Part shown: piece by piece, positions 41,789 through 58,429 of the stretch
How positions within the stretch are numbered: position 1 is the stretch's first letter
Layout of the letters: each line of letters begins with the position of its first letter
Assembly: GCF_018613155.1 (NCBI RefSeq)
Contig: NZ_JAGGQU010000002.1
Location: 41,676 to 105,675 of the forward strand
Direction: 5' to 3'
DNA: 64,000 bases
DNA from: Bacillus sp. ISL-55
GTDB lineage: Bacteria; Bacillota; Bacilli; Bacillales; Cytobacillaceae
Program-made: the position numbers and the translations under genes
The notes under the pieces: model-generated
What the model was told of the DNA's origin: nothing
The model's input: only the letters and a program-made list of their open reading frames with translations
Database searches by the model: none

Positions 41789-43618
41789 TTAGAGAGATTT
41801 GATTATTTCTAAAAGTTCCTGATTTTTATCTTCTTCAAACAAACGCACCATCTCTCGATACAACTCTTCCTCATCGTTCCAATTCTCTATAAACACAGAT
41901 TTTGAGAACAATCGAGTATATCTAGATGTTGGCAATTTTGATTGAGCAGAAAAAACGATTCCAGATTCTTCTAACTGGTTTATCATTTTAAGTCTTTTAT
42001 CAGCTTGAAGAGGCCCCAATTCCAGAGTTAATTTTAATCGATCATCTCTTAATCGCTCAAACCAGTATGTGAAAGTACTATCATGCCACCACCATTTTTC
42101 TCGGGTAACCCCGAATGATTTCTCTAATTCTCTGAACTCGGTCATCAAAAAAGAGGCATTCTTGTTTCCGACTCGATAAAGTGACGAAACGATTCCGTGA
42201 TTTTGAGCAAATTTCAAGAAAGGATTTTGAGGGAATCGTTCATATGTTCTCTCGCTAATCAACCGTTCTTCTTGTACCTCTTGTTCCAAGTTGTTTTCGA
42301 TAATCTCTACCGCTTTTGCAATTTTCCTGAGAGTATTTTTAAGATTGTCAGCATGATATAGAGTTTCCATGCCAGTAACAACTTCTTGCTTGTTTGCCCA
42401 ATCAATAATACTTAATGTCTCAGTATATATTTTGGTGTATTTTTTGCCCTCTAGTTTTGCTGAAGGACGAATAGTAATGCCTTGGGTTTCCAGTGCATTT
42501 AGCAACTTCAAACGATTTTCATAAGGGACTGGGCCAACCTCAATATTAATCTTTAATCTTTCATCCCATGTCCGCTCAAACCAAATAATTAGGCCATGCC
42601 CTCTCCAGTAGCCTTGTTCCGGTTTTCCTATTACATCGGTAAAATCCAGCCATTCAGGTAAAATAAAATTAGGAACCTGAGCATGAGCCTTATACACATC
42701 TGCTGGTAAATCTTCCAGTTGAACGAAAGATAAAAATGCTTCATGAAGAATACTACTCCCAATTTTAAAGATGTAGTCGATCGTTTGCTTCTTCTTTTCA
42801 TAGATTCTCTTCAATGCATTCATTTGAACAATCGACAAACCATCCACACTCTGATAGATTTCTCGATATCTTGGATGTTTTCGGAATTCATCATGTTGAC
42901 TTAGGTAAAGGAAATCTACCGCTGCCTTATTTGATTGATAGACATCTTGTGCAAGCTGAATTGCATCCTCATCTTGTACTAGTTCTTCTTTCAATATAGC
43001 AGTATAGTGCATCAAAAAATCAAAAATGCTTTCCGACATTACTTCACGATTCAATTCAGTATGTAAAAGGATGATTTCCAATATGTCATTATAATCAAGA
43101 ACCAAATATTCACTATGTGTCGGTGTATCACTTCTAAGTGTTAGAAAAATCGGTATAACTTTAAAATCCTTATATACTGTTCTAGCATATTCTAGATAAT
43201 CATCAAGTTGTCCTAAGGATTCAAAAGCATGAAATTTATTCTCAATAACCAAAACTAATTTATGAGATGGAAGTACAACAACTAAATCGATATATCGACT
43301 AGTATGTGTCTTTACCTCCCGATAAATCTCAGCATCTGAGAATGAAGCATGCATATAGGATAGAAAGTCGATACCAACCAATTTATCTTCATTTTCCTGC
43401 CTGGTCACCAAACGTGAAAGAATTTGTTTAACGAAAAAGTTTCCTAAATGATGATTTTCATTCGGATCTAATAACCACGCAAGAACATTTGAGTGCCTTA
43501 TTTCAAATTGATCGACACGTAGTACTTTTAAAGGATTAAACTGATGAAACTTTTGATGTAAGTGGGCAAATTCCTTAGAATGATCAAGTTGAGCAATTGT
43601 CTCAATCGAAAATGTCAC
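41789..43618 (-). CDS. PD-(D/E)XK nuclease superfamily protein (PDDEXK_4) with a duplicated C-terminal domain
   Basis: 609 aa. Nuclease core: IRHSNVLAWLLDPNENHHLGNFF, Asp in SRYIDLVVV (D111) and E-x-K in VLVIENKFHA (E126, K128). The C-terminal half has two copies of one domain: residues about 340-420 (IIWFERTWDERLKINIEVGP, NRLKLLNALETQGI, SIIDWANKQEVV) and about 512-594 (TYWFERLRDDRLKLTLELGP, KRLKMINQLEESGI, FIENWNDEEEL). Last gene of the McrB-McrC-like operon, 28 bp after it, GTG start with AAGGAAGG upstream. Probably an effector or accessory nuclease of that system; alternatively an independent defence gene. Confidence 0.8.
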   Translation of the reverse strand: MTFSIETIAQLDHSKEFAHLHQKFHQFNPLKVLRVDQFEIRHSNVLAWLLDPNENHHLGNFFVKQILSRLVTRQENEDKLVGIDFLSYMHASFSDAEIYREVKTHTSRYIDLVVVLPSHKLVLVIENKFHAFESLGQLDDYLEYARTVYKDFKVIPIFLTLRSDTPTHSEYLVLDYNDILEIILLHTELNREVMSESIFDFLMHYTAILKEELVQDEDAIQLAQDVYQSNKAAVDFLYLSQHDEFRKHPRYREIYQSVDGLSIVQMNALKRIYEKKKQTIDYIFKIGSSILHEAFLSFVQLEDLPADVYKAHAQVPNFILPEWLDFTDVIGKPEQGYWRGHGLIIWFERTWDERLKINIEVGPVPYENRLKLLNALETQGITIRPSAKLEGKKYTKIYTETLSIIDWANKQEVVTGMETLYHADNLKNTLRKIAKAVEIIENNLEQEVQEERLISERTYERFPQNPFLKFAQNHGIVSSLYRVGNKNASFLMTEFRELEKSFGVTREKWWWHDSTFTYWFERLRDDRLKLTLELGPLQADKRLKMINQLEESGIVFSAQSKLPTSRYTRLFSKSVFIENWNDEEELYREMVRLFEEDKNQELLEIIKSL

Positions 43619-43646: not shown

Positions 43647-45107
43647 TTATATTAGTTCAAAGAGTGTAAAAACTATATGTTTTAATTCATCATTTCGACC
43701 ACCAGGCACCATCTTTACAGCACCCATTCCATATTTCTCACGGAACTCCGCATCAAAGTATCTCATTCCATCAGCCTGTTCATCTGATGTGGGGGTTAGT
43801 ATATAGACTTCCCTTGCGGCCTTTTGACCACTTTCCCGGTGGATGATTCCATCCCGATACTTATGCATTTCCCCTAAAGCAGTTCCTAGGTTTCCTGCTA
43901 CCCTATATTTAGGATCAAACACAATGATTTGTTCTTTTCCTTCCAACACGATATCCGGAATCATCCTTTGCGTAAATGTATGATAAGTTTTTGTGTTGTA
44001 TTGATAGGACCTCTGGAAATAGAGAGTCATTCCGTCTGTTAACTCTACAGAACTCTGGTTGTTCTCAGCTAAATTTAAAAATAATCCTTCTCTAGTAGTC
44101 TTGAATAAATGACTGGTGTCCCTAACTAAATTGGACTCTCTTAATATTTTTATTATTTGTATATAACACCACATTTCATAAAGGAAAAATGTGTCCTTTA
44201 ACGCAATCGGGTATGAAAAGCCGATTCCTTCTCTTCGGTGTTTGTACAGCTTGTCGAACCATTCGTACCATAGCCGATAAACAGGATGCTTCCGGAAGGT
44301 TTGCGTAATGTTATACGGTCCTGAGTTTTCATTGATTTCTCTTAGGAAAGGACTGTTCAGCCATTGCTGAAGGATGGATTTATACCTTTTGGCTTTTGAT
44401 GACACAGTTTCAACACTTTCATAATTTTTTAATAGCTTAAATAAATCCAGTGTTTGTTGCTTCAAAACTTGATTTTCATATAAGTTTATAGTTTCGTAAG
44501 TTTTGTTCGTTTCCAGATGCGTGGGGATATCCCGGCCATGGCCTTTTCGATCTAACCAGGCTAAAGTCGTTTGTTCCGCACGTTGCACTCTTTCTCTTTT
44601 CATGATAGTAGATTGCTTTTGTAGTCTCCGAATTGGCCTATTCTCAATTTTCGAAAAGAGTTGTCTGAGCTGCTGAAAATTTCTTTCAATGTAACTCCAT
44701 TGTGACCATGAAACAATCCGGCTTCTGCCTGTTGTATTGACCTGTGTTTCAAGGCCTGACAGCTGAAAACAAATATTCGCTTCTTCGAGGATTTCTTCTA
44801 CCATTATATTGTATTGCTCTTCGGTAAGTTTTCGATGATCTGGATAAACATATGACTCTATTTCATTGCCATTCACCGAAATTTTCACACTGCCACTTTG
44901 AAAAGGAGTCAGTAGTGAAACATATAGAAACTCACCCTGCTTATAAAAAGGTAACGGTACTTCTTGAAACGTAGCCTTTACTGTATCCCCTGGATACCTG
45001 AGTTTATATTCAGCGGCTTCCGTTAAATAAGCTCTGGAAATATCAATCCATCCTTGCCCATCATCCCATATCTCAAGCTTGTTATCTCCAGAACTGAGTG
45101 GCTCCAT
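43647..45107 (-). CDS. McrC-like protein (DUF2357 + PD-(D/E)XK nuclease)
   Basis: 486 aa. An N-terminal beta-rich DUF2357-like region (about 1-110), a helical middle with RHPVYRLWYEWFDKLYKH-like sequence, and a C-terminal nuclease: MIPDIVLEGKEQIIVFDPKYRV (catalytic D and D-x-K, about residues 391-411) and EMHKYRDGI. This fits the McrC-like partner of a translocating McrB GTPase. The start lies inside the end of the McrB-like gene (26-bp overlap) with GGAGGAG upstream. The target, modified or foreign DNA, is inferred from McrBC. Confidence 0.85.
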   Translation of the reverse strand: MEPLSSGDNKLEIWDDGQGWIDISRAYLTEAAEYKLRYPGDTVKATFQEVPLPFYKQGEFLYVSLLTPFQSGSVKISVNGNEIESYVYPDHRKLTEEQYNIMVEEILEEANICFQLSGLETQVNTTGRSRIVSWSQWSYIERNFQQLRQLFSKIENRPIRRLQKQSTIMKRERVQRAEQTTLAWLDRKGHGRDIPTHLETNKTYETINLYENQVLKQQTLDLFKLLKNYESVETVSSKAKRYKSILQQWLNSPFLREINENSGPYNITQTFRKHPVYRLWYEWFDKLYKHRREGIGFSYPIALKDTFFLYEMWCYIQIIKILRESNLVRDTSHLFKTTREGLFLNLAENNQSSVELTDGMTLYFQRSYQYNTKTYHTFTQRMIPDIVLEGKEQIIVFDPKYRVAGNLGTALGEMHKYRDGIIHRESGQKAAREVYILTPTSDEQADGMRYFDAEFREKYGMGAVKMVPGGRNDELKHIVFTLFELI

Positions 45108-47319
45108 AATACTCCAGCTCCTCCTGCATTCGGTTTAGATGCTTAAGCGAAACGGAATTTAAATCAAGATTCTCTTTAAGCCATGTTTCCAATGTGCTTA
45201 ACATCTCGGATATTCTTTCATCTCCGCGTACTTTAGTCAGTACTTTCTCTGAAATAACTCGGTCCAATGCATCCATAGGTTCCATTTGATGCTCTTCTGG
45301 CAATTGGGAATTCACATACAGCTTCCTTAACATTTCTCCCATCGTACGGTAACCAAAATGCAGCTCATATGTCAGTAACATTTGATGTAATTCTTTTAAC
45401 ATTGCAAACTCTTTGCCAAGCACTTCTTTCATATCCTGGTCAGCCTGATTCCAATAAGAGTTAAAATCGACATCCGATAAAGTCATGACAAAAGCTCGAT
45501 CAAGCACCTTATCTGAAATGGAGTGTGTCGTTTCATCAACGTTAATTGTTCCTAGCAAATAAACGTTTGGCGGAATAAGAACCTTCTTAGGGATATCCGC
45601 TATATTATCATCTTGATGCAAAGGGATTTCTTTTCTTGATTCAACAGCGCTTAGATAATCGCTTAAATAATATTCGACTCGTGCAAGATTCATCTCATCC
45701 AGTAAAATGAAATGCGGTTTTTCCCGTTCTTTCAATGCGTTCAGAATCACATTAAGGAACTCAGTCTTAACATACCGCTTTTCAAAAGAACTGTAGTATC
45801 CAAATAAAGCGGATGCGTCAGTCCAATCAGGCCTTACAGGGATAATCGTGAAATACGGATTCTCACTCTCATATTCCAAACCGTACACCGCGTTAGCATA
45901 TAACCTGCAGAGTTGCGTCTTCCCGGTACCTGAAATGCCACTTAAGAGCACAAAATGCTTATCATCAAGCGCCGTTAAATTCAAATGGAGATCACGTATT
46001 ATATCTTTAGAAAACGTAAAACTACTATTTGAGATTGTTTGGGAGATTTCCTCAAAGTGAAAATTAGGTTCTAATGACTCAGTATCATCAGTTGGAAGAC
46101 CTTCAACATCTTCTCCCTCATCATTTTCGTCCGTTGGCAGCTCCAACTTTTGGCTGGCATGCGCAAACAATAATGCTGCATCAATGAAATTCTTCTTTAC
46201 CTGCTCATTCCCTTCTATGAAGGTCTGAGTATCATTATTGAAACTTCCTACTCTGTAAACATTGCCACCCGCTTCTATCCCATGTTCTTTCAGTAGTTTC
46301 ATAGCCTGTGCCATCACCATATGATTATCCAGACTTTGTGTAGTAAAGGATTTCGATATCCTCCATTCCTTAATACCTTCACCTAATATTTCCCGTGCAT
46401 TGGTGAATATATGGTTATGGCCTTCAATCTGTACCATGATGGTCTGGAATGGAGAGAACTTTTCATGGAACTCAAAATAATAAATGAACCCCTTAGTCAC
46501 CATTTGATCTGCATCATAGATATGGAAGGATTGACGCTTTCCATTTGTTTTGTAATTCTCTACAGAAGAAAGATCAACAGAGTAAGTTCGTCCCAATAGC
46601 TCAGTCTCTTTTAAGTTCCTTGTACTACCCAATGCCATCAAAGCATGATAGGTCTTAGAGGAAATTTCAATTTCCTCACTTACATAGACCCTGAATTGCT
46701 CTAACTTTTCCCAAGAACTAATCAGACGATCAATTAAAAACTGTTCCTCAAGCTGTCCTTCCAAAGGAATGCTCATTCCAATCTGGAACCATGGACGCTT
46801 TCTCGGTTTAATACAACCTTTTATGTATTGAACAAAGTCCTGCTTAAGTAATATCTCTTTCTCTTTCCAACCAGTATGAATACCAAATTCGTCTGGAATC
46901 GAGTCCATAACGCCATGTATCTTTTCATTTTTAAACCATGCCCAGAAAGGGATGAAATTGACTTCATTATGAATAAGGATTACATTGCTGAAGCTATTTA
47001 ACTCCAAGGTAATTAAATTATGCTCTTTTTCATTCACTTTTCGATATAAGCCGACGAAATATTTTCGCCCGATATCTGAACTCTTTTTCTTTTCAGCATA
47101 AGTAGGATTCCTGGCATCATGATAAGTAGTAGATAAGGTCGTGTCATAACTTCTTATATAAATTTCATCATTTAAATTGATACCCATTTCTCCTACAAAA
47201 CGTTCAAACAGAGTTTTCATAACAGGAGATATCTCATCCAGAGACCTTCTGCAGCGTAGTTCAGTATTTTCCAGGTTAAGAATGGACTTAAAGTAATCTA
47301 GATTAAGCAAAGACAGCAC
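45082..47319 (-). CDS. McrB-like AAA+ GTPase of a restriction system
   Basis: 745 aa. AAA+ domain: Walker A GISGTGKT (461-468), Walker B FILLDEMNLARVEYYLSDYLS (537-557), sensor/GTP signature TINVDETTHSISDKVLDRAF (591-610) with the Arg finger R608. NVDET in place of NTAD is usual for McrB relatives. The N-terminal 450 residues contain no domain I can name; in McrB this part reads modified DNA, so it probably sets the specificity. An acidic linker (398-415) joins the two. First gene of the three-gene operon. Confidence 0.88.
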   Translation of the reverse strand: MLSLLNLDYFKSILNLENTELRCRRSLDEISPVMKTLFERFVGEMGINLNDEIYIRSYDTTLSTTYHDARNPTYAEKKKSSDIGRKYFVGLYRKVNEKEHNLITLELNSFSNVILIHNEVNFIPFWAWFKNEKIHGVMDSIPDEFGIHTGWKEKEILLKQDFVQYIKGCIKPRKRPWFQIGMSIPLEGQLEEQFLIDRLISSWEKLEQFRVYVSEEIEISSKTYHALMALGSTRNLKETELLGRTYSVDLSSVENYKTNGKRQSFHIYDADQMVTKGFIYYFEFHEKFSPFQTIMVQIEGHNHIFTNAREILGEGIKEWRISKSFTTQSLDNHMVMAQAMKLLKEHGIEAGGNVYRVGSFNNDTQTFIEGNEQVKKNFIDAALLFAHASQKLELPTDENDEGEDVEGLPTDDTESLEPNFHFEEISQTISNSSFTFSKDIIRDLHLNLTALDDKHFVLLSGISGTGKTQLCRLYANAVYGLEYESENPYFTIIPVRPDWTDASALFGYYSSFEKRYVKTEFLNVILNALKEREKPHFILLDEMNLARVEYYLSDYLSAVESRKEIPLHQDDNIADIPKKVLIPPNVYLLGTINVDETTHSISDKVLDRAFVMTLSDVDFNSYWNQADQDMKEVLGKEFAMLKELHQMLLTYELHFGYRTMGEMLRKLYVNSQLPEEHQMEPMDALDRVISEKVLTKVRGDERISEMLSTLETWLKENLDLNSVSLKHLNRMQEELEYYGATQFWR

Positions 47320-47478: not shown

Positions 47479-48459
47479 ATGTACAAGATATCTAACTATA
47501 AAGCGGAGAGTATTGAGCCAGTGACATTTTTAGATTTAGGAATGCAAGAAAGTGATATAGAGGAATTGTTAAGGACCAATATTGAAATGATAGCTGATGA
47601 GGAAAAATCCATGCTAATTGTGGGTCAACAGGTAAGAAATGTTCATTACGGTCGTAGTGATTTGACAGCAATTGATAATAATGGAGACATCGTTTTAATT
47701 GAAATTAAGAGAGATCGCAAAGATATTGAAAACAGGAAAGAATCTTTTGAATTCCAGGCTATAAGATACGCTGCAAGCTATGCAACTATTAAAGACCCTG
47801 AAGACTTGGTAACCAAAATTTACGCTCCCTATATTGAAAAATATCGTCGTGATTTTGATATAGGTTCTTTAACTAGCTTCGAATTAGGCAGCAGAAAATT
47901 ATCAGCATTTCTTCAAGAACACAATGCCATAAACAGTTTTAATCAAAAACAACGGATAATCCTGGTGGCTTCAGACTTTGACGAACAAACGCTTTCAGCT
48001 GTTGCCTGGTTAAACAGTAATAATGTAGATATAAGCTGCATTAAACTAAAACCGTATAAAATTGCCGAGGAAGTATATTTAAACGTTGAAAAAGTACTCC
48101 CACTTAACGACTACGATGATTATTTTGTGAATTTCTTAGAAAAGTCGTCACCTCTGTCCAAACCTAAAAACACGAATATCTCTAAGCGTGCATTACCAAA
48201 AATAGACTCAATGCTTGAATGGGGAGTTGTTACAGCTGGCGATGTAATAAAAGCCAAAGACTTTCCTGATGAAGGGGTTCTTTTAGCAAACGGTAATATC
48301 CTTGTGAATGACACAGAACAATCCATGCAAAAGTGGTTAAAAGGATTATATGGATGGTCTAGTATTCAAACATATGTATTTGCGATTCATAAAGAATCAG
48401 GAAAAAGCCTCTCGGTGATACGTCATGAGTATATGGAGAATATGGAATCAGACATATAG
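47479..48459 (+). CDS. DUF91/NucS-type PD-(D/E)XK nuclease with a RAMA-like C-terminal domain
   Basis: 326 aa. The N-terminal nuclease has RNVHYGRSDLTAIDNNGDIVLIEIKRDR (D61, E75, K77), as in NucS/DUF91 and related endonucleases. A helical segment follows. The C-terminal region from about 237 (LEWGVVTAGDVIKAKDFPDEGVLLANGNILV...WLKGLYGWSSIQTYVFAI) resembles the RAMA domain found in restriction proteins. It is divergent from the McrB-like operon across 160 bp. GTGAGGG lies before the ATG. Probably part of the same defence locus. Confidence 0.78.
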   Translation: MYKISNYKAESIEPVTFLDLGMQESDIEELLRTNIEMIADEEKSMLIVGQQVRNVHYGRSDLTAIDNNGDIVLIEIKRDRKDIENRKESFEFQAIRYAASYATIKDPEDLVTKIYAPYIEKYRRDFDIGSLTSFELGSRKLSAFLQEHNAINSFNQKQRIILVASDFDEQTLSAVAWLNSNNVDISCIKLKPYKIAEEVYLNVEKVLPLNDYDDYFVNFLEKSSPLSKPKNTNISKRALPKIDSMLEWGVVTAGDVIKAKDFPDEGVLLANGNILVNDTEQSMQKWLKGLYGWSSIQTYVFAIHKESGKSLSVIRHEYMENMESDI

Positions 48460-48466
48460 TAAACAT

Positions 48467-48507
48467 GAAAAAGTCGCCACTGATTTCAATTCTGTGGCGA
48501 CTTTTTC
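48467..48507. terminator. Bidirectional terminator
   Basis: Perfect 14-bp stem GAAAAAGTCGCCAC / GTGGCGACTTTTTC around 13 nt, with T runs on both strands, between converging genes. Confidence 0.88.
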
Positions 48508-48559
48508 ATTTATTGTCTCTAGTTTTGAGCCTTCCACTATAAAGAATGCTTCATTTCGT

Positions 48560-49321
48560 TCATACAGTCTGCTCACTTGCAATCCCATAATACTTAACCA
48601 AATACTTATCTATCATATTCTCAACTTCATCAGTCGTCAGCATATCAAGTATCATCGCACCGCCAACAACGTTCAAATACTTGTTGGCCTGGACAAAATG
48701 GTCTCGTTTTATGCTGATCCCTCTATTCTGCAACTTTAATATCGATTTTAGAATGCCTTTAGTGATATTGGGATTTGATGTGAAGTTACTCGAGAAGAAC
48801 ACGACACTTCTTGCTGAAAAGTCCTTTTCACAAAAGAAGTCTGTCAGCCAATAAGGATTTTCTGAATTGGCTTCATCGTATGTCATATATCCAACCCACC
48901 ATAAGCGTGCCAGGATATGAACGAACAGCGATCTTTTATTGCCGTTTTTGAAGAACATAGCGGTATTAATCCGGGTATCATTCCCACTCTCCAATTCATT
49001 CTTCAGCCGATAAAAGGCGAAATCTCTAAATTGCAGGTGGGCCAATCCTGACCAAAGTCTTTCCTGGGTGGCTTGTGATACCGTTAAATGCCTTAATGCC
49101 TCATAAATTGCCTTCACATTTTCTTTGTCACTCACTGAGTAATCTTCATCTAGATTTAAATCAGGCATTCCAAAAGAAACACTAGATTCTATTACTCTAC
49201 CTTCTTCTTTAAAATATTCATCGAACCATTGATGATCCTTATTATAATAGTTTTCTTTATAAGCATCATAATTCGTCCGTAAATCCATTAATGTTTCATC
49301 TGAGATAAATTTAAGTTTCAA
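48560..49321 (-). CDS. DUF6339 family protein, last gene of the GHKL-ATPase operon
   Basis: About 253 aa. TQERLWSGLAHLQFRDFAFYRL, then AMFFKNGNKRSLFVHILARLWWVGYMTYDEANSENPYWLTDFF are the DUF6339 hallmarks. No catalytic motif is evident; mostly helical. The TTG at 49321 has GGAGG 7 bp upstream, inside the end of the preceding gene. DUF6339 genes occur beside GHKL ATPases in restriction-type gene groups; the biochemical role is unknown. Confidence 0.75.
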   Translation of the reverse strand: MKLKFISDETLMDLRTNYDAYKENYYNKDHQWFDEYFKEEGRVIESSVSFGMPDLNLDEDYSVSDKENVKAIYEALRHLTVSQATQERLWSGLAHLQFRDFAFYRLKNELESGNDTRINTAMFFKNGNKRSLFVHILARLWWVGYMTYDEANSENPYWLTDFFCEKDFSARSVVFFSSNFTSNPNITKGILKSILKLQNRGISIKRDHFVQANKYLNVVGGAMILDMLTTDEVENMIDKYLVKYYGIASEQTV

Positions 49322-49323
49322 TG

Positions 49324-50169
49324 TCAATCCTCCGCACGGTTGAGTTTTTCAATCTCTTCAAAGCTAGTCTTCAATGGTTTTCTCAAGACCAGTTGAGCAG
49401 CTTTCAATGCAGAAAAAGTATCGGAACCAACATCCTCGAGTTTATGATTGTTTTCATCGAAGATTTTATCTAGCACTTGGTACCATGTGTATTCTTCAAA
49501 GTCCCCTTGGCTATCTTTGATTTTAGAAAAAATATATACCAAAGCAGGCATGAAAACCGCTGACAAAATAGTATTTTTCAATCGAGAATTAGCATTTCCA
49601 GCATATTGATTATATTCATACTCTGGGAGTGCAATCGTTATATTGTTCGAATTTAAATCGACTTCCATAAACTCTTTCTTTTGAGACTTACTCACTGTAA
49701 TAATAGACGGTAAATTTAATAATTCCGCATTATCCTCAAACAATGTCGTTTCGATCGCCTCGCCTATTGCAATGAAATTCCCTTTCTCAAACGTAATCGG
49801 AAATCCTTTGTACCAGTCACTCAATGAATCATTGGTATAATCCGTTATTCTATCTTTAGCGATTACAAAAGAATGAATTTGGATCTTTCCCCTTAAGTTA
49901 CTCGAAGGAATAGAAATCTCCAATGAATCACGGAAAGATTCATATGCTTGTCGATAACTGGTTTGACCACATTCAACATGGATTAAGAAAACCGCTTTCT
50001 GTTGGTGAATAAGCTCTTTAACGCCATTGTTGTCCAGCTGGAAATGGGCATTAATTTTCACTTCACCAAATGACTCAGCCACTTCAATGCCTGTCGAAAA
50101 ACTGGAATCTATATAATCATCATTATTCATATAAAGCACAGGATATGGGTATGCACTACTAATTTTCAT
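49324..50169 (-). CDS. Unknown protein, middle gene of the GHKL-ATPase operon
   Basis: About 281 aa from the ATG at 50169 (MKISSAYPYPVLYMNNDDY; GGAGGTGGAG upstream, inside the GHKL gene's end). The N-terminal 130 residues look beta-rich, the C-terminal part helical (SRLKNTILSAVFMPALVYIFSKI). No known motif. The middle place in a tightly overlapping operon and the neighbours suggest a structural or adaptor subunit. I do not recognise the family. Confidence 0.65.
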   Translation of the reverse strand: MKISSAYPYPVLYMNNDDYIDSSFSTGIEVAESFGEVKINAHFQLDNNGVKELIHQQKAVFLIHVECGQTSYRQAYESFRDSLEISIPSSNLRGKIQIHSFVIAKDRITDYTNDSLSDWYKGFPITFEKGNFIAIGEAIETTLFEDNAELLNLPSIITVSKSQKKEFMEVDLNSNNITIALPEYEYNQYAGNANSRLKNTILSAVFMPALVYIFSKIKDSQGDFEEYTWYQVLDKIFDENNHKLEDVGSDTFSALKAAQLVLRKPLKTSFEEIEKLNRAED

Positions 50170-52099
50170 ACAGCTCCACCTCCATGACACAGTAATCCGA
50201 GTAGTCAATTTCCACATCTAGCATAAAGCTTTTATTCGCTTTAAGAGATTGCAAATAGATAGTATTAGCAGTATATTTCTCTACTAAAACCTCCGAGTTA
50301 TCAGTTGCCGCCTTTTTAATAGGAAGATCATAATCACTTTGTTCTCCCACAACTTTAAATACCAGGCGACCGCTTGCCAAGGATTTTTGAGGAGTGACCA
50401 TGAATCGGTATTTCCCATCATTCTTATCAACACAAGCATACCTTTGTTGCATTTGAACCGGCTTCTTGCTTGGCTTACGCTCTCTCTTTTTATCTTGATC
50501 TCCTGGATCATTATCATCCAGTTTATTATTCCCACCAGTTTCAGTTGAGCCGCCTCCAGTATCTCCGCCGCCACTGTGTTGACCAGTCCCGTTTCCACCC
50601 TGATCTCCCGTCGGCGTAATCCCGAATTCACCTTTTAACTGTTCCTCTATATCTTCCTCTTGCTCACCCTTAGTGACAATCTTTTTAGGAGTGTCTTCCT
50701 TCTTCTTTTTAGAAACAAGCGATTTAATCGAAGATGTTAAGGATTCAGTCTTATTCTTGCCACTGTCTGAAAGCAAATTTTTATTTGGCAGGAAATCACT
50801 TAATCCAACCGCATCCATGCTATCGGTGATTTTTTCCTGGAATAGCTCGTTAACCGTCTTTCTAATATAGCTTCTCAAATCAGAATAAATCTTTTTAGCC
50901 AACTTCGGATCCTTCTCATATCTTTCAGGAGCCCATTCATTATGAGCAGGGTTCTCCATTTGCTTAAAAATGTTGTTCATATGGTTACCAGTGATCATCA
51001 GGATTCCTGTAAAAGAAATGCTCCCGCTGATATTCTTCTGTTCGAACAAACGCATGCCAGTTTTTCTCGTCATTAACACACGGCGATTCAAATCTTCACC
51101 CTTGAACAAAAGCAGTTCAGCTTCGCCTTCTTCAAATGAAATACCATTCTTATAACTTTGTGCAGGATATTTTAGTTTTACGGTTTTCTCAGAGTTTAGG
51201 AGAATGAAATATTTTTTCAGAATCTCGTTCTCCTCTGTGCTCTCCAAGTCATGGATCAACTGTCCGAGATTTTCGTGTGTAACTTCAAAATCATTTATCC
51301 TGACAACCAATTTCTTTTGGAAAATAGTAATGAAAAAATTATGTAACACAGATTTTTTCACTTCACTTTCCCAATCCCCAACAGGTTCGAATGCAGACAC
51401 ATAAATATCCGTACCTGTCTCTTTACGAATAAACTGAGAATCAAGCTGGAATGTTCCAGGAATAGCAAGGGATTTTTCATTGTGTGTAAAGTAACCGTTA
51501 CCTAATGTAATTTGGTTTTCGTTCTTCTGGAAGGACATGATGTTGGCCACGCCAATATAAGATTCATATCCAGTAATATCTTGGGATGAATAAAAAAGTG
51601 TCCTGAGATTCGAGTTCAGGAAAGGCGCAGATTTCCCTATACCGAAGCTTCCGCCAGAGCTTTCACCTTTATTAGATGATCCTGCTTCTTTGACCAATGA
51701 GCTCCAAGGGCTGCCTATCTCACCATCACGGGCACCCTCAAGCCCTTTAGTATTGAAGTCACTAATTCTTAAAAAGTTAATTTTGCTTTTCCCTAACAGA
51801 GTTAAAGCGTTTTCGATAAAATCCTCACTTTTTTTATTCCTGCCACTCCATGTAGCATCACATTTATTGAATACCTTAACAAGCTGTTCCTTCTCAGGAA
51901 AGTCATTAGTATTCATTTGGAATTGCTTAAACTCCACGACAACCGGACTATTTGTATTCTTAACCGCATCAAGAGAGTTCTGGCAAATCTCCCTGGTCAA
52001 CGATTCCAAAGCATTCCCTCTGAAAGTCTCAAGACCTGCATTATTTATTGAATTGATTAACCCACCAGTAGCAGCTGGAAAGTTCCAATAAGTATTCAT
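50159..52099 (-). CDS. GHKL (Hsp90/MutL/MORC-type) ATPase of a putative defence operon
   Basis: About 646 aa. The Bergerat fold is complete: N box LTREICQNSLDAVKN (about residues 43-57 of the longer frame), ISDFNTKGLEG (121-131) and the lid GGSFGIGKSAPFL (158-170). A second domain (about 230-430) resembles the transducer part of MutL/MORC proteins. A Gly/Ser/Thr-rich linker with GGGDTGGGSTETGG follows (about 515-540), then a C-terminal beta domain. The ATG at 52099 has TGGGGG upstream. First gene of three overlapping genes. Prokaryotic GHKL ATPases of this kind are known from restriction-like clusters; the exact system is not recognised. Confidence 0.82.
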   Translation of the reverse strand: MNTYWNFPAATGGLINSINNAGLETFRGNALESLTREICQNSLDAVKNTNSPVVVEFKQFQMNTNDFPEKEQLVKVFNKCDATWSGRNKKSEDFIENALTLLGKSKINFLRISDFNTKGLEGARDGEIGSPWSSLVKEAGSSNKGESSGGSFGIGKSAPFLNSNLRTLFYSSQDITGYESYIGVANIMSFQKNENQITLGNGYFTHNEKSLAIPGTFQLDSQFIRKETGTDIYVSAFEPVGDWESEVKKSVLHNFFITIFQKKLVVRINDFEVTHENLGQLIHDLESTEENEILKKYFILLNSEKTVKLKYPAQSYKNGISFEEGEAELLLFKGEDLNRRVLMTRKTGMRLFEQKNISGSISFTGILMITGNHMNNIFKQMENPAHNEWAPERYEKDPKLAKKIYSDLRSYIRKTVNELFQEKITDSMDAVGLSDFLPNKNLLSDSGKNKTESLTSSIKSLVSKKKKEDTPKKIVTKGEQEEDIEEQLKGEFGITPTGDQGGNGTGQHSGGGDTGGGSTETGGNNKLDDNDPGDQDKKRERKPSKKPVQMQQRYACVDKNDGKYRFMVTPQKSLASGRLVFKVVGEQSDYDLPIKKAATDNSEVLVEKYTANTIYLQSLKANKSFMLDVEIDYSDYCVMEVELYEN

Positions 52100-52346
52100 T
52101 GTTAACCCCCAATTTCCCTTCAACAACTCTAATGTAATATTTTATGTTCTCTATAAAAGCAATATAATCACACTATAAATTATTTTAACATATTATGTAA
52201 CACGAAATAGAAGTAATTTACAATTAACAACGATTCCATATTTTGTGTTGAATGGCGTTTGTTCCTTTACTCCATGATCTTTGACTTGGTATGTAAAAAT
52301 ATCAATGATATCATTATCACTGCGAATACTAATCATGGAGGAACTT

Positions 52347-52757
52347 ATGAAAAAGCTAATAAAAGTTGTTGCAGCAATCATAGAAAATGAAGAAAAAGAA
52401 ATACTTTGCGCTCTCAGATCTCCTGAGATGGCACTTCCTAACATGTGGGAATTTCCCGGTGGAAAAGTTGAAAAAGGCGAGGATATTTTCTCTGCACTTC
52501 AAAGAGAAATTGAAGAAGAATTGGAGTGTAAAATTGAAACTAACTCTGAAGTTTTCAATGATCACACGCATGAATACGAGACATTTATCATAAACTTAAT
52601 TTCAATTAAATGTAGAATCGTCTCGGGTACTCCGATTGCTAGTGAACATTCTAAGCTAATATGGTTAAAGCGAGAGAATTTGGACTCCCTAAAGTGGGCC
52701 CCGGCAGATATTCCAGCGGTTGATCAATTAATACATGAAAATATAGTCTTCTCATAA
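52347..52757 (+). CDS. NUDIX hydrolase, MutT/8-oxo-dGTPase-like
   Basis: 136 aa. MKKLIKVVAAIIENEEKEILCALR and the Nudix box GGKVEKGEDIFSALQREIEEELEC are close to MutT/CTP-pyrophosphohydrolase proteins; NMWEFPGGK is the typical lead-in. GGAGG lies before the ATG at 52347, which is preferred to the 52281 start. It converges on a PLD-helicase gene with 8 bp between the stops and sits between two defence operons. Nucleotide pool cleaning or a defence-linked nucleotide activity are both possible. Confidence 0.87.
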   Translation: MKKLIKVVAAIIENEEKEILCALRSPEMALPNMWEFPGGKVEKGEDIFSALQREIEEELECKIETNSEVFNDHTHEYETFIINLISIKCRIVSGTPIASEHSKLIWLKRENLDSLKWAPADIPAVDQLIHENIVFS

Positions 52758-52777
52758 TGAGAAGACTATACTTTTTT
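52743..52777. terminator. Terminator hairpin shared by the ends of the NUDIX and PLD-helicase genes
   Basis: 13-bp perfect arms (ATAGTCTTCTCAT / ATGAGAAGACTAT), then ACTTTTTT on the plus strand. The stem includes both stop codons. Confidence 0.8.
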
Positions 52778-55579
52778 AGTGAACTCCGTATATAAACTAG
52801 ATGGTATTTCGTGCTCTAACTCCATTTGAACTGTAATCGGCTTATTCCCCTCAAAATGTACTGAATTTCCCTTCCCTATATAAATATAGGGCTCTGTCTT
52901 CCCGTCAATCTCTCGGTATTTTCTAATAAACAAATGTAGGTTAACGCCACGCTTTTTGTTATAAATAATATCTTGTCCTCTGTTGGATTCTTGCGTAGTG
53001 TTGTTGACAGACTGCCACTGGAACAAACGTTGATTAATAAACTTGTCTTGGTAGTTAATGCTTTCTTTCACATCCGCCTCTTTGTGAAGGTCCACGAACA
53101 GGAAGAATTCTTTCCCATTCACTAATAAGCCTGAGCCTCTGAAAGAACTATGAATCTTACGGTAATTGGATAGTAAGGCTGCATCTATCATTTGATACTG
53201 TTCATATAGCTTGAAATGCGGGATGCCGTAGTAATTACTTTGAAATTCCTTTTCATATCGGAAAATACCATATGATATCACATCTTCAATAAATTTATAA
53301 TACTCTTCATTTTTCAGTAAATTTGTTAACAGGTTTGTTCTGACCAGCTGCCCATCTCTATACTGTACTAGCTTTGGTTTTGACTTTAACTGACCTGAAT
53401 CATAGTAATCTTGATTAAGGTATTCAAAGGCATGCCGTATGGTATCTTGGTCAACATCCCTTACAAACTTTAGGATTTGATACTTTGCTTCCTCAGCGTT
53501 AATCGAATCGTGTTGCAATAAGTACTTAAGAATCACAAATTCATGGATCCGTTTAATTGGCAGCTTACTTGATAACTCCTTGAGAGTTCCTTCAAAATCC
53601 TCATTGAGTAGAAGCTTTTTTAAATGATCATCTCTTTCAACTTTAGCAACAAATTGCAAATACGACTTTTCCCTATTGATAAATTTAACCGGATCAGGAG
53701 CACCATCGTACTTTAAAAAATCAACTAGAAGAAAAGGAATTCGACCAGAGTTTAGTTTTTTAAATTCATTGTACTCTTCCTTTAGATACTTCATAGAGTT
53801 GAAATTTTCTCGATCGATTTGCTCTAAAATTCTTTCCTGAGAAATCTTATCCATTTGGATATGGGTAGCTCCAGGGATATTAGCAAAGCCTGTTGCGATT
53901 GCAACCTTCAAGCTCTCCTTGTCGTAATATCTACTACCGTTTAGCGCTAGCGCAATCAAAAAGGTTTTACTATGGTTTCCAATAAAATCGAGTACCGTTA
54001 AAAAGCTTTTATTGGCATATTTCCTTAATCCTCTTCCTAATTGCTGTATAAAAACAATGGGAGAGTTTGTCGGTCTAAGCATTAGCACAGTATTAACAGA
54101 AGGAATATCAACACCTTCATTAAAGATATCTACACTAAAAATAAACTCCAGTTCATCATTGTCATCTTCCAGCTTATTAATGTAAAGTTGTCTCTTATCA
54201 GTAGAGTCTCCGCCATGTAATATGACACTCTTATAACCCCGTGTATTGAATTCGTTTGCCATATACTCAGCGTGTTCAATGCTCGCACAAAACCCAAGTC
54301 CTTTTCGCTTATCCCCGTCATGGCCGTAAAAATCCATCTTATCTATGATGAAGTCGACCCTCTCATTCACCTTTAATCTTTTCGTGATTTCTGCGATATC
54401 ATCAATATCTACATCGCTTAGATCAACACTTTCAATATCAGTGATTCCGAAGTAATGAAATGGGATGACAAGATCATCTTCTAGAGCTTCATGTAAACGG
54501 ACTTCTAATGCGACATTGTTATCAAATATATCAAAAATATTCCGGCTATCACTTCTCTCTGGTGTTGCTGTCATCCCTAAAGTAAACTTAGGACTAAAAT
54601 AGTTGAGAATAGTTTGATATGTTGGGCTAGCTGCATGATGGGCTTCATCAATAATTAGATAATCAAATTCCTCTGGAGAAAATTCATGATAACACTTTGA
54701 GATTGTTTGGATCGTCGTAAAAACGTAATCAGCATTTTTCTGTTTATGATTTCCCGTTAAAAGTCCAAATGTTAAACCTTCATTAGGCAATAGTAATTCA
54801 AAAGTTTCTTTCGCCTTTTTTAAAATTTCTTCCCGATGAACGACAAATAACAGTTTCTTTGGGTTAACATTTTTAACATCAAAAGCGGACATATAGGTTT
54901 TGCCCGTTCCAGTTGCTGCAATAACAAGCGCCTTATTTTCTCCATAACTACGTAATCGTTCTAGGTTTTCCGTTGCTCGTTTTTGCATTCTGTTTTGAAC
55001 GATATACCTTCTGTCCTCATAAATAACATTCTGCCTTGGATTGGACTTTTTAAAAGACTCCAAGAATTCTTCATAGCGTTTAATGAAATCCCGATCTGCT
55101 TCCACACTCAATTCCCAAAGATTATTGTATTCTTTAATGACATCCTTAATAAAATGAGCATCCTCTTTAGAGATAATTTTGACATTCCATTCAATATTAC
55201 TTTTCAAGGCACTCTGAGTAATATTGGAGGAACCTATAATTACTTTAAAGTGATCTCTATACTCAAATATGTATGCTTTTGTATGGAAGCCTACTTCTCT
55301 ATCCGTTACAAAAACCTTCAACTCAATATTTGAGAATTCCTTTAACCGCTCCAATGCTTTAGCATCTGTAAAATTCAAATATGTAGACGTAATGATTCGC
55401 CCTTTTACGCCCCTTAACTCAGCTTCTTTAATAGGATCAAGCAATAACTGCAGTCCACTGAAGTTAATAAAAGCCACACTAAAATAAAAACGATCACATT
55501 CCTGGATCGAATCTACTAACTCTTTTAATAGATTACCCGCATCAGAGTTAACGATCAGTTCCTTTTCTGTTACTTCCAT
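52766..55579 (-). CDS. PLD nuclease - SF2 helicase - DUF3427 fusion protein
   Basis: About 937 aa. N-terminal phospholipase-D-type nuclease with a single HKD motif, FHTKAYIF (H102, K104 in the 940-aa frame) and GSSNIT, so it would act as a dimer. SF2 helicase: ATGTGKT (225-231), IIDEAHH (312-318), GMTATPER (338-345) and QLGRGLR. The C-terminal DUF3427-like region contains LFVDLHKEADVKESINYQDKF and LFQWQSVNNTTQESNRG. The ATG at 55579 has AAGGTG upstream and is preferred to the GTG at 55588. Such proteins are found in defence islands and may translocate on and cut foreign DNA. Confidence 0.87.
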   Translation of the reverse strand: MEVTEKELIVNSDAGNLLKELVDSIQECDRFYFSVAFINFSGLQLLLDPIKEAELRGVKGRIITSTYLNFTDAKALERLKEFSNIELKVFVTDREVGFHTKAYIFEYRDHFKVIIGSSNITQSALKSNIEWNVKIISKEDAHFIKDVIKEYNNLWELSVEADRDFIKRYEEFLESFKKSNPRQNVIYEDRRYIVQNRMQKRATENLERLRSYGENKALVIAATGTGKTYMSAFDVKNVNPKKLLFVVHREEILKKAKETFELLLPNEGLTFGLLTGNHKQKNADYVFTTIQTISKCYHEFSPEEFDYLIIDEAHHAASPTYQTILNYFSPKFTLGMTATPERSDSRNIFDIFDNNVALEVRLHEALEDDLVIPFHYFGITDIESVDLSDVDIDDIAEITKRLKVNERVDFIIDKMDFYGHDGDKRKGLGFCASIEHAEYMANEFNTRGYKSVILHGGDSTDKRQLYINKLEDDNDELEFIFSVDIFNEGVDIPSVNTVLMLRPTNSPIVFIQQLGRGLRKYANKSFLTVLDFIGNHSKTFLIALALNGSRYYDKESLKVAIATGFANIPGATHIQMDKISQERILEQIDRENFNSMKYLKEEYNEFKKLNSGRIPFLLVDFLKYDGAPDPVKFINREKSYLQFVAKVERDDHLKKLLLNEDFEGTLKELSSKLPIKRIHEFVILKYLLQHDSINAEEAKYQILKFVRDVDQDTIRHAFEYLNQDYYDSGQLKSKPKLVQYRDGQLVRTNLLTNLLKNEEYYKFIEDVISYGIFRYEKEFQSNYYGIPHFKLYEQYQMIDAALLSNYRKIHSSFRGSGLLVNGKEFFLFVDLHKEADVKESINYQDKFINQRLFQWQSVNNTTQESNRGQDIIYNKKRGVNLHLFIRKYREIDGKTEPYIYIGKGNSVHFEGNKPITVQMELEHEIPSSLYTEFTKKV

Positions 55580-55677
55580 GTGTATCACCTTAATCTTTCT
55601 GAACTATATGTAAAATTGTACTATATTTGGATGAATACTTGAAGAAGTTTACATTATACATAAAAACAGTACCCAAA

Positions 55678-58110
55678 TTAATGAGTACTGTTAATAGCTC
55701 TTCTTTCGAAATGTGAATGCAAACGATATTCTGCTATTTCTCTTGTCCATTTATAGAGAATTTCGTGGTCCTCTTCCAAAATATCAAAATTGACCCTAAA
55801 CATCCCATCCGAAAAGATGGTTAATCCATCGTCTCCACGATTCCACATTGTCATTGGCATGGTTTCAATGAGGTTGCTGACTGCCCTCTCATTGTATTCC
55901 CATAGTTTTTTCGATGATTTATCCGAGAAATCAATCCGCTTTCGATATTCTGTTTCAGTTAAGTACCTATGGAAAAATGGAGCTACTTCTCTTGATGAAA
56001 TCGGTTTATTCCATTCTTTGGCACCACGATTAAGCATTGCCAACAGAAGAACCATTTTATAACTTTTTGACATACTGGTTTTCTCAACCTCAACCAGCCA
56101 CTTCTCATAACGCTTATAAACGTTCTTTTCATGGCCACTTAACTCATCAGCCCAGCTTAAAAACCCTATATAGGAGTTAAACTCTTGCTTATAGTGTACT
56201 GAGTCAGAGTGCCCTTTAAGATGCAGCTCCAGATAAGTTGGCCTCCTGCCAAGGTCGTTCTTAAGCTCAAGATAATCATTCAGCAGCTTTTCCTTACGTG
56301 GAGATCGCTTTCTTGTCATTTCCTTGAGGAGATTAACTACCTGTAAGTCCAAGTTCAGTTCGCAACTTGCAGGAACTCTTGGTTCGATTTTCTTTGATGT
56401 TCCTACACTTCTTGCCATATCAAACAAACTTAACTTAACATCTGCGTTTCGATAGTTCCCAATTAAATCGATAATCACGCAATGCTCTTTTCCAGGAGCT
56501 AATCTGAGACCACGTCCGATTTGTTGAGTAAAAACAGTCAAAGACTCTGTCGGCCTTACAAACAGAAGGGTATCTACTGGCGGAATATCTACCCCCTCAT
56601 TGAATAGATCAACAGTGAAGATTACATCCAACTCCCCAGCTTCCAGCTTATTTATGGCGTCAGCTCTTCCAACTTCCTTTTGTTGAGAATGAAGACTGAC
56701 TGTTTTATATCCTTGTTTATTAAAATAGCTTGATAGAAAGTTTGCCTGGCGAATCGAAGAACAAAAACCAATTGTCCTTGACTGCTTTTTATCTTCCCAA
56801 GCACCCAGTATTTTCGAAGCCATTTCTTCTTTTAACTGTAAGTGTAGAAGTTCTTCTTCATCATAACGTGTTCCCAACCAGGTGATTTGGCTGTAATCCG
56901 TTTCATCGTACACTCCATAATACTTAAAAGGAGCAAGCCATTCATGTTTAATTGCATCAAGAAAATCAAGCCGGTATGCGACATTTCCATCACAAATCGC
57001 ATAAACATCTTTATTATCATTTCGATCTGGAGTAGCTGTAATTCCAAGTAAGAATTCTGGTTTAAAATAATCCAATACTCTCTGATAAGATTCAGCTGCA
57101 GCATGATGAAATTCATCTACTATAATCAGATCAAATTCATCCGGTCTGAATTTCTCAATATGTGCCTTCATGCTTAAAGTATAAATGGAAGCAAACATAG
57201 CATCAGCATCGCTATCCTTGTACTTACCGTTATATATCCCATACTTTTTATTGGGCATAATATTTTTGAAAGATTGCCTCGCCTGGTAAAGGATCTCTTC
57301 CCTATGAGCAATAAATAAGACCTTTTTGTAATCCTTAGCAAAAAAACCGGCAAGGTAAGTTTTCCCAAGGCCTGTAGCCATTACCACAAGTGCCTTTTGG
57401 TATTCTTCTTCCCTAGTCTTATCAAGCTCTTCAAGTGCTTCAATCTGAGCGAATCGTGGTTTAATATCACCGTATGTTTCACTTCTCGGTGGATCATGAA
57501 TGATTTCCGGCTGTACAGGTACCTCGTTTTGAGTAGGTAACATTAAATCCAGTTCATCAGTATCTGACCAAACCTTAGCGAGATTTGGCTTATCTCCATG
57601 GTATCGCTCATAGACTTCCATATACCCTTTCAATGTTTCATCATTTAACTTAACAGTTTGATCAGCATAAAAAACCTTTAAGAACTCTTCAAGAGCATCG
57701 TTAAAGACTGCCTTATCATTGCTAACTGACAGGTTCCATTCTACCCCATTGTTAAGAGCAGATTTTGATAGATTCGAAGACCCAATAAACAAGCAATCCT
57801 CAGAATCTGACTTAAACAAATAAGCTTTGGGATGAAAAGAAACACCATTACTCTTCCAAAGACGAACTTCAATATTGTCATCAATACCTAATAATTCAGC
57901 AAGACCTTCAGGCTGAGTGATATGAAGATAATCCCCCGTACAAATCTTAATATCCGCACCAGCTTTTGCAGCACTTGCCAAAGCGTTCTTTAAAAATGCA
58001 ACACCAGATTTCATTACAAAAGAAGTCAGTATACATATTGTCGACGCCTTTTCAATTTGACTCAATAAATGACTACCCAAGTCATTTGTAATTAACTCAA
58101 TCTTACTCAT
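55678..58110 (-). CDS. PLD nuclease - SF2 helicase fusion protein, second type
   Basis: About 810 aa. HKD motif SFHPKAYLF (H97, K99 in the 814-aa frame) and FIGSSNLSKSAL; helicase motifs MATGLGKT (248-255), IVDEFHH (334-340, DEFH in place of DEAH), GITATPDR and QIGRGLRL. The C-terminal 220 residues contain a helicase-associated-like repeat (GRRPTYLELHLKGHSDSVHYKQEFNSYIGFLSWADEL) and no DUF3427. It is not simply a duplicate of the neighbour. The start ATG (58110) lies inside the end of the MazG-like gene. In one operon with MazG; 90 bp separates it from the next helicase gene. Confidence 0.87.
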   Translation of the reverse strand: MSKIELITNDLGSHLLSQIEKASTICILTSFVMKSGVAFLKNALASAAKAGADIKICTGDYLHITQPEGLAELLGIDDNIEVRLWKSNGVSFHPKAYLFKSDSEDCLFIGSSNLSKSALNNGVEWNLSVSNDKAVFNDALEEFLKVFYADQTVKLNDETLKGYMEVYERYHGDKPNLAKVWSDTDELDLMLPTQNEVPVQPEIIHDPPRSETYGDIKPRFAQIEALEELDKTREEEYQKALVVMATGLGKTYLAGFFAKDYKKVLFIAHREEILYQARQSFKNIMPNKKYGIYNGKYKDSDADAMFASIYTLSMKAHIEKFRPDEFDLIIVDEFHHAAAESYQRVLDYFKPEFLLGITATPDRNDNKDVYAICDGNVAYRLDFLDAIKHEWLAPFKYYGVYDETDYSQITWLGTRYDEEELLHLQLKEEMASKILGAWEDKKQSRTIGFCSSIRQANFLSSYFNKQGYKTVSLHSQQKEVGRADAINKLEAGELDVIFTVDLFNEGVDIPPVDTLLFVRPTESLTVFTQQIGRGLRLAPGKEHCVIIDLIGNYRNADVKLSLFDMARSVGTSKKIEPRVPASCELNLDLQVVNLLKEMTRKRSPRKEKLLNDYLELKNDLGRRPTYLELHLKGHSDSVHYKQEFNSYIGFLSWADELSGHEKNVYKRYEKWLVEVEKTSMSKSYKMVLLLAMLNRGAKEWNKPISSREVAPFFHRYLTETEYRKRIDFSDKSSKKLWEYNERAVSNLIETMPMTMWNRGDDGLTIFSDGMFRVNFDILEEDHEILYKWTREIAEYRLHSHFERRAINSTH

Positions 58111-58429
58111 CTTCAACCTCAATTAAGAAAATCTTCTCCTTAAAACCACCGCGCTTCTCAGCCTTCTGCTTTCGAACTTCTTCAACTTCATCAATAGAAT
58201 AACCATGGTATTCAGAAAGAGAATGAATAATTTCTAACAAATCTGCAAGTTCTTCAACAGCATCTTTCTTGTTATCAGTATTAACGTATTCATCTAATTC
58301 CTCGTAGGCTTTTTTCTTGAGATGATCTATATATTCAGTTTCATTTAAGACTCTGGTTGAGAATTTTTTTCCTGTGTTTTCAATTACTTGTGGTATGCGA
58401 TCTCGAACTAATTTATTGTATATGGGCAT
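58103..58429 (-). CDS. MazG-like nucleotide pyrophosphohydrolase
   Basis: 108 aa. MPIYNKLVRDRIPQVIENTGKKF is the usual start of the COG4997 house-cleaning NTP pyrophosphohydrolases; EELDEYVN and DAVEELADLLEIIHSL carry the EExxD/ExxD metal residues. It should hydrolyse noncanonical NTPs. GGAG precedes the ATG. It is translationally coupled (8-bp overlap) to the PLD-helicase, so a joint role is likely, perhaps depleting or sensing nucleotides during infection. Confidence 0.9.
   Translation of the reverse strand: MPIYNKLVRDRIPQVIENTGKKFSTRVLNETEYIDHLKKKAYEELDEYVNTDNKKDAVEELADLLEIIHSLSEYHGYSIDEVEEVRKQKAEKRGGFKEKIFLIEVEDE

Follow-up and report, generated by a model that had tools for sequence, protein, structure and literature searches.

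How could a GHKL ATPase defend a bacterial cell when the operon that encodes it holds neither a helicase nor a nuclease gene? This question is raised by a stretch of 64,000 nucleotides from Bacillus sp. ISL-55 (assembly GCF_018613155.1, contig NZ_JAGGQU010000002.1, positions 41,676 to 105,675; here called the window, with positions counted from its first letter), in which three genes, here named A, B, and C, encode a GHKL ATPase, a partner protein, and a DUF6339 protein. A sequence-only reading had proposed these genes as an undescribed defence module. We report that the trio corresponds to a catalogued defence candidate that comes and goes as one unit, and we tentatively read it as a nuclease-free clamp that blocks invading DNA rather than cutting it, a reading that we regard as possible.

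The gene trio and its place among catalogued systems

Three adjacent minus-strand genes were confirmed, encoding proteins of 646 (A), 281 (B), and 253 (C) amino acids (aa). The features of the unit are:

50159..52099, minus strand, gene A, GHKL ATPase of paraMORC2 type (PDC-M33A), start ATG 52099, PADLOC E 6.6e-227
49324..50169, minus strand, gene B (PDC-M33B), 281 aa, PADLOC E 6.4e-97
48560..49321, minus strand, gene C (DUF6339, PDC-M33C), 253 aa from TTG 49321, Pfam E 2.9e-55, PADLOC E 4.2e-104
50159..50169, minus strand, A/B overlap of 11 nt (window sequence and loci rows)
48465..48509, no strand assigned, hairpin with A/T flanks immediately 3' of C, predicted bidirectional intrinsic terminator ending the unit (-25.7 kcal/mol, z -8.1)

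Against PADLOC-DB 2.0.0, A, B, and C match PDC-M33A, B, and C in order and near full length; as all three models are matched by adjacent genes in the same order, the trio is a phage defence candidate that is already catalogued, though still uncharacterised. The module can thus no longer be called undescribed, and B, previously placed in no recognised family, has one in PDC-M33B (6.4e-97). The PADLOC entry gives no function or mechanism, and Pfam recognises one of the three proteins, C. Outside preprints and most subscription papers, which our literature search did not cover, no paper on DUF6339 or PDC-M33 was found, and the trio appeared in no title or abstract among the listed papers on GHKL proteins in defence or phage biology.

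The trio was correctly located at 48560-52099, although the coordinates first attached to it (50159..52099) span A only. Its genes had also been described as tightly overlapping throughout; this is true of A and B, while B and C overlap only if C starts at the upstream TTG 49327, the start shared with homologues (TTG 49321) leaving a 2-nt gap. Across 55 rows that include the 3' end of A (the window is entered twice, as window and as locus L050, and L047 lacks A), the A/B overlap measures 11 nt in 32 rows, 14 in 9, 17 in 13, and 20 in 1, with an identical relative frame in all. B/C spacing varies between -11 and +18 over 55 rows, leaving the A/B coupling as the only rigid one. The hairpin 3' of C is absent from the list of the consensus terminator scan.

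Recurrence and exchange of the cassette

Among 398 genomes of the phylum, the A, B, and C models all match in one set of 8, to which the window's genome belongs; the A model has one additional weak match (genome G142), and C is never present there without both A and B. Among 54 loci (47 from GTDB contigs and 7 from other genomes), A-B-C is contiguous in 52, and the two others (L035 and L047) end at contig edges; loci L048-L055 may repeat species already among L001-L047. This recurring three-gene unit bears out the proposal of a fixed module with no helicase or nuclease inside the operon: the genes do co-occur, and not solely within a known named system. Besides Bacillota, the trio reaches Actinomycetota, Deinococcota, Fibrobacter, and Leptotrichiaceae. 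Within the genus, 2 of 13 genomes carry A. The trio stands in order on the eight plasmid records examined among 24 listed (Lactococcus twice, Ligilactobacillus, Priestia, Planococcus, Deinococcus, Paenarthrobacter, and Arthrobacter), and an IMG/VR contig classed as viral (L063) carries a small upstream gene followed by A, B, and C.

Several further observations concern individual copies. Gene A is split into two or three frames in L003 and L033, and L006 has extra C-matching fragments (L006:6486-6934) upstream of a complete trio. A further PDC-M33A-like ATPase, again distant and with a frame of 677 aa, lies in the same order at G411:C13:47819-48199 (L165), and an unannotated phage record of 6190 bases (MT837792.1, H25) holds an A-like frame at 27% identity.

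The slot occupied by the trio could be delimited by comparison with congeners:

48447..52304, no strand, cassette boundaries, the stretch missing in congener G408 (flank alignment)
47479..48459, plus strand, left flank gene of PDC-S11 type, with weak similarity to NucS/Shedu nucleases (under the curated cut-offs); this flank of the slot is conserved
52281..52757, plus strand, right flank gene, Nudix (PDC-S07; Pfam, PADLOC)

In three congeners the flank match stops near the stop of the PDC-S11-type gene. G408 matches the window to 48446 and resumes at 52305, the two parts being separated by 65 bp, and G400 matches to 48446 and from 52333, with 93 bp between (48447-52332 missing); both therefore lack exactly the trio, either through loss or because they never had it. 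G395 matches to 48446 and from 52284, with 48447-52283 replaced by 11.25 kb (L166:2350-13603) encoding PbeA (5.5e-241), PbeC (3.9e-278), and open reading frames (ORFs) of 1327, 151, and 768 aa. The trio thus comes and goes as one unit, and in G395 its slot holds a different predicted defence system. The 1327-aa ORF has a weak MzaA match (6.9e-7); the Mza system (PADLOC MzaA-E), reportedly that of Gao et al. 2020, is counted among the closest known systems to the trio. G403 shares both trio and Nudix gene with the window (88.7% identity), in a different setting where a gene related to the window's PDDEXK_7 gene lies some 2.4 kb away, and in G401 and G402 the flank match is limited to the McrB-like part.

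Gene A as a predicted MORC-type clamp

The following motifs of A were identified:

51965..51991, minus strand, N-box, E37-x3-N41-x2-D44-A45, with the conserved Glu (motif scan and alignment)
51743..51760, minus strand, G1 motif, D114-x-N116-x2-G119 (motif scan and alignment)
51632..51655, minus strand, G2 motif, GGSFGIGK, residues 149-156 (motif scan and alignment)
50942..50956, minus strand, ExxxH motif, E382 and H386 (alignment)

A GTD at residues 229-231 follows the N-box, G1, and G2, all in order, and a Gly-rich stretch lies at about residues 480-550. The strict motif triple is present in 46 of 55 A frames (eight of the remaining nine are truncated at a locus edge and one, in L040, deviates from the pattern) and is absent from every non-A frame among the 8314 ORFs scanned. 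In an alignment of 63 rows, from which L033 and the window duplicate L050 are left out, E37 is present in 56 rows, the other seven being gaps, and E382 and H386 are invariant (63/63). Since no Pfam HATPase model and no PDB chain of HATPase kind matches A, the Bergerat fold, earlier described as intact, rests on these ordered motifs; profile searches of A sequences likewise gave no match to an S5-fold domain after the GHKL domain. For A, hhalign gives Prob 97.1 against the ATPase encoded in the G142 operon, versus 0.4 for E. coli MutL and 3.9-7.6 for a 19-sequence MutL profile, where the alignment is limited to the N-box.

Two-component histidine kinases, which are also GHKL proteins, are marked by Asn for Glu in the N-box, a DHp domain, and a response regulator. 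A instead has Glu (E37), and Pfam and profile searches of the trio gave no kinase or response-regulator match. GHKL motifs with a conserved Glu are common to A and the paraMORC2 ATPases, whose membership of restriction-modification (RM) operons was predicted, with ExxxH as their hallmark, in the accessible text of Iyer et al. 2008 (PMC2292703), the one searched paper to use that name; the suggested link of A to MORC proteins therefore holds as kinship to these RM ATPases. Motifs and kinship together give good grounds for predicting that A forms an ATP-gated clamp of paraMORC type. A clamp is also predicted for VcSduA (GHKL-Shedu, type I-D, formerly paraMORC3), another defence protein with a GHKL ATPase; unlike A, it has its own C-terminal DUF4263 nuclease according to the accessible part of its description (PMC12137116), and none of 44 A proteins matches DUF4263. 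The trio further resembles the HEF_HK/Response_reg_2 pair, a GHKL protein and partner found near cytosine-methylase RM systems (accessible part of PMC8011034), although Pfam and profile searches of the trio matched neither family.

Partner proteins B and C

Structure prediction gives B an N-terminal beta-sandwich (about residues 22-144) and a C-terminal helical part (about 183-281). Conservation was compared after removal of near-identical rows (36/50, 57/75, and 36/61 kept); in the reduced set, H64, E66, C67, and R73 of B are kept in 86-95%. A catalytic role for B was rejected on the loss of H64 and E66 in two actinobacterial members (L061 and L062), and an apparent B fusion (P0072), in reality an out-of-frame read through A, was excluded from the B model. 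C is predicted with confidence to adopt a mostly helical fold, which had no known relative in structure comparison; its conserved polar residues are N68, E87, R88, R105, D149, N217, and D226. C matched no toxin or nuclease in Pfam, PADLOC, or further profile searches, inspection by eye revealed no HEPN-type RxxxxH in it, and the listed fold matches of the B and C models include no convincing nuclease.

Nine clostridial and related members have a longer C (307-514 aa), with about 50-260 aa added at the C-terminus. Of seven such pieces, four match the GreA_GreB C-terminal domain (PF01272; best 3.6e-6, barely past the Pfam cut-off), whereas the match of the whole C proteins of L042, L045, and L052 falls under that cut-off. 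Alignment to E. coli GreA by hhalign yields E 9.9e-5 and Prob 58, and PDB matches, which include Gfh1 and GreA, are non-significant (E 0.13 and 0.27).

L042:9301-9519, L045:11754-11972, and L052:401-652, no strand given, GreA/GreB C-terminal-type domain fused to DUF6339 (Pfam)
L034:7862-8080, no strand given, example of a small gene upstream of A

C proteins of about 510 aa in L041 (3694-5220) and L044 (10839-12380) carry a C-terminal extension of another kind, and both loci have an upstream PC4-family gene (1.9e-12 and 1.6e-9). In 11 loci (L027, L030, L034, L045, L046, L059-L063, and L115; L033 is left out of this survey), the gene directly 5' of A encodes a small conserved protein, roughly 75 aa long, which is a possible fourth PDC-M33 subunit. 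It has no Pfam match above cut-off in five members tested and no convincing PADLOC match in four. A further copy lies away from A (L043:5005-5238). No homologue was found in the window, where an 83-aa ORF upstream of A was set aside as antisense to the Nudix gene.

Neighbouring genes

Outside the cassette, the window holds:

41789-43618, no strand given, PDDEXK_4 nuclease gene (PDC-S26 type), adjoining the McrBC-like genes (Pfam, PADLOC)
43647-45107, minus strand, PDDEXK_7/DUF2357 protein (profile searches)
45082-47319, minus strand, McrB-like AAA protein (profile searches)
52766..55588, minus strand, PLD-helicase, mREase_IV type (Pfam, PADLOC)
55678..58122, minus strand, second PLD-helicase (Pfam, PADLOC)

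The trio had been placed between McrBC-like genes and PLD-helicases; these neighbours exist, but the PDC-S11-type and Nudix genes intervene. A proposed check, whether the trio recurs without either, gave a positive answer: of the 35 loci flanked by 6 kb or more on each side, 15 contain no PLD-helicase and no relative of the window's two McrBC-like genes, a count that drops to 13 of 35 once a separate McrC cluster (PF10117) of L006 and L022 is included. A PLD-helicase together with some McrBC-type gene occurs in the window, L025, and L002.

Genes within 7 kb were compared between 48 trio loci and 40 control loci by Fisher's test. Dcm was found at 14/48 versus 1/40 (p 0.0011), a MutH-like restriction endonuclease (RE) at 9/48 versus 0/40 (p 0.0034), GmrSD at 8/48 versus 1/40 (p 0.036), the PDDEXK_7 cluster at 6/48 versus 0/40 (p 0.03), Vsr at 5/48 versus 0/40 (p 0.06), and PLD-helicase at 15/48 versus 6/40 (p 0.085). 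Like all other neighbour counts, these omit the eight short loci L048-L055; they are biased towards the trio side, as genes next to the trio served to build the hidden Markov models (HMMs) and the controls, 40 PLD-helicase places hand-picked for enough flank (three end at contig edges), were not taxon-matched; the Dcm, RE, Vsr, GmrSD, and MazG cluster labels were assigned by eye, with only some families Pfam-checked. A specific Dcm link is not put forward, as the enrichment extends to further defence genes and the models derive from trio neighbours. Because several unrelated defence genes are enriched alike, the neighbour link is unspecific; it fits a defence island and keeps alive the borrowing of a nuclease from nearby. 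A MazG-like gene (label by eye) occurs at window 58103-58429 and at 12 other loci, sharing its locus with a PLD-helicase in 11 of the 13 cases.

Weighing the explanations

Location and exchange give good reason to think that the trio would act as a defence cassette. Its MutL-like motif logic in A and its occurrence on plasmids might instead point to DNA repair or to plasmid or island maintenance, which we consider very improbable given the patchy occurrence (8/398 genomes, 2/13 within the genus), the defence-island context, and the exchange with Pbe-type genes in one slot. That the trio has no nuclease of its own is a step we would make with moderate confidence. As paraMORC ATPases usually partner nucleases (accessible text of PMC2292703), B or C could be a nuclease of an unrecognised kind in an ordinary ATP-dependent restriction system, and the conserved H64, E66, C67, and R73 of B would suit this; the replacement of H and E in the actinobacterial members and the fold matches of B and C make it improbable. 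In line with a proposal made for paraMORC ATPases in RM operons, the trio may also be an ATP-driven accessory that recruits or licenses the nuclease of a neighbour (type II RE, PLD-helicase, or McrBC). This is doubtful, as the neighbours vary, with 15 of 35 well-flanked loci lacking both PLD-helicase and the two window McrBC-like families, the cassette is gained or lost without its flanks, and the enrichment is unspecific and drawn from biased models and controls.

Weighing against a nuclease-free clamp is the finding that, per length, the conserved polar residues of C are as dense as those of A. This density, the confident fold without known relative, the extensions in nine relatives, and the GreA_GreB domain in four of seven of them would suit abortive infection, with A and B as sensors of phage DNA or replication and C as a novel toxin or an effector of growth arrest, aimed in some relatives at RNA polymerase through the GreA-type domain. 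We judge this unlikely, given that C has no toxin or nuclease match, is always accompanied by A and B across the 398 genomes, and has no evident immunity gene. Under the nuclease-free clamp reading, the last step, in which the invader would be blocked or silenced, is weakly suggested by the GreA-type domain in relatives and by analogy with C. elegans MORC-1, for which DNA entrapment is described in the accessible part of PMC8277788. A fuller version, in which the trio would recognise invading DNA, close an ATP-gated clamp, and silence transcription via RNA polymerase without a cut, as MORC proteins act in eukaryotes, seems rather unlikely.

Conclusions

The trio can be seen as a paraMORC2-type system pared down to an ATPase and two partners, and close relatives offer natural plus and minus sites for it. 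If the trio defends alone, the clamp would be separated from the nuclease, and the cassette would provide a small bacterial model of MORC-type ATPase action on DNA.
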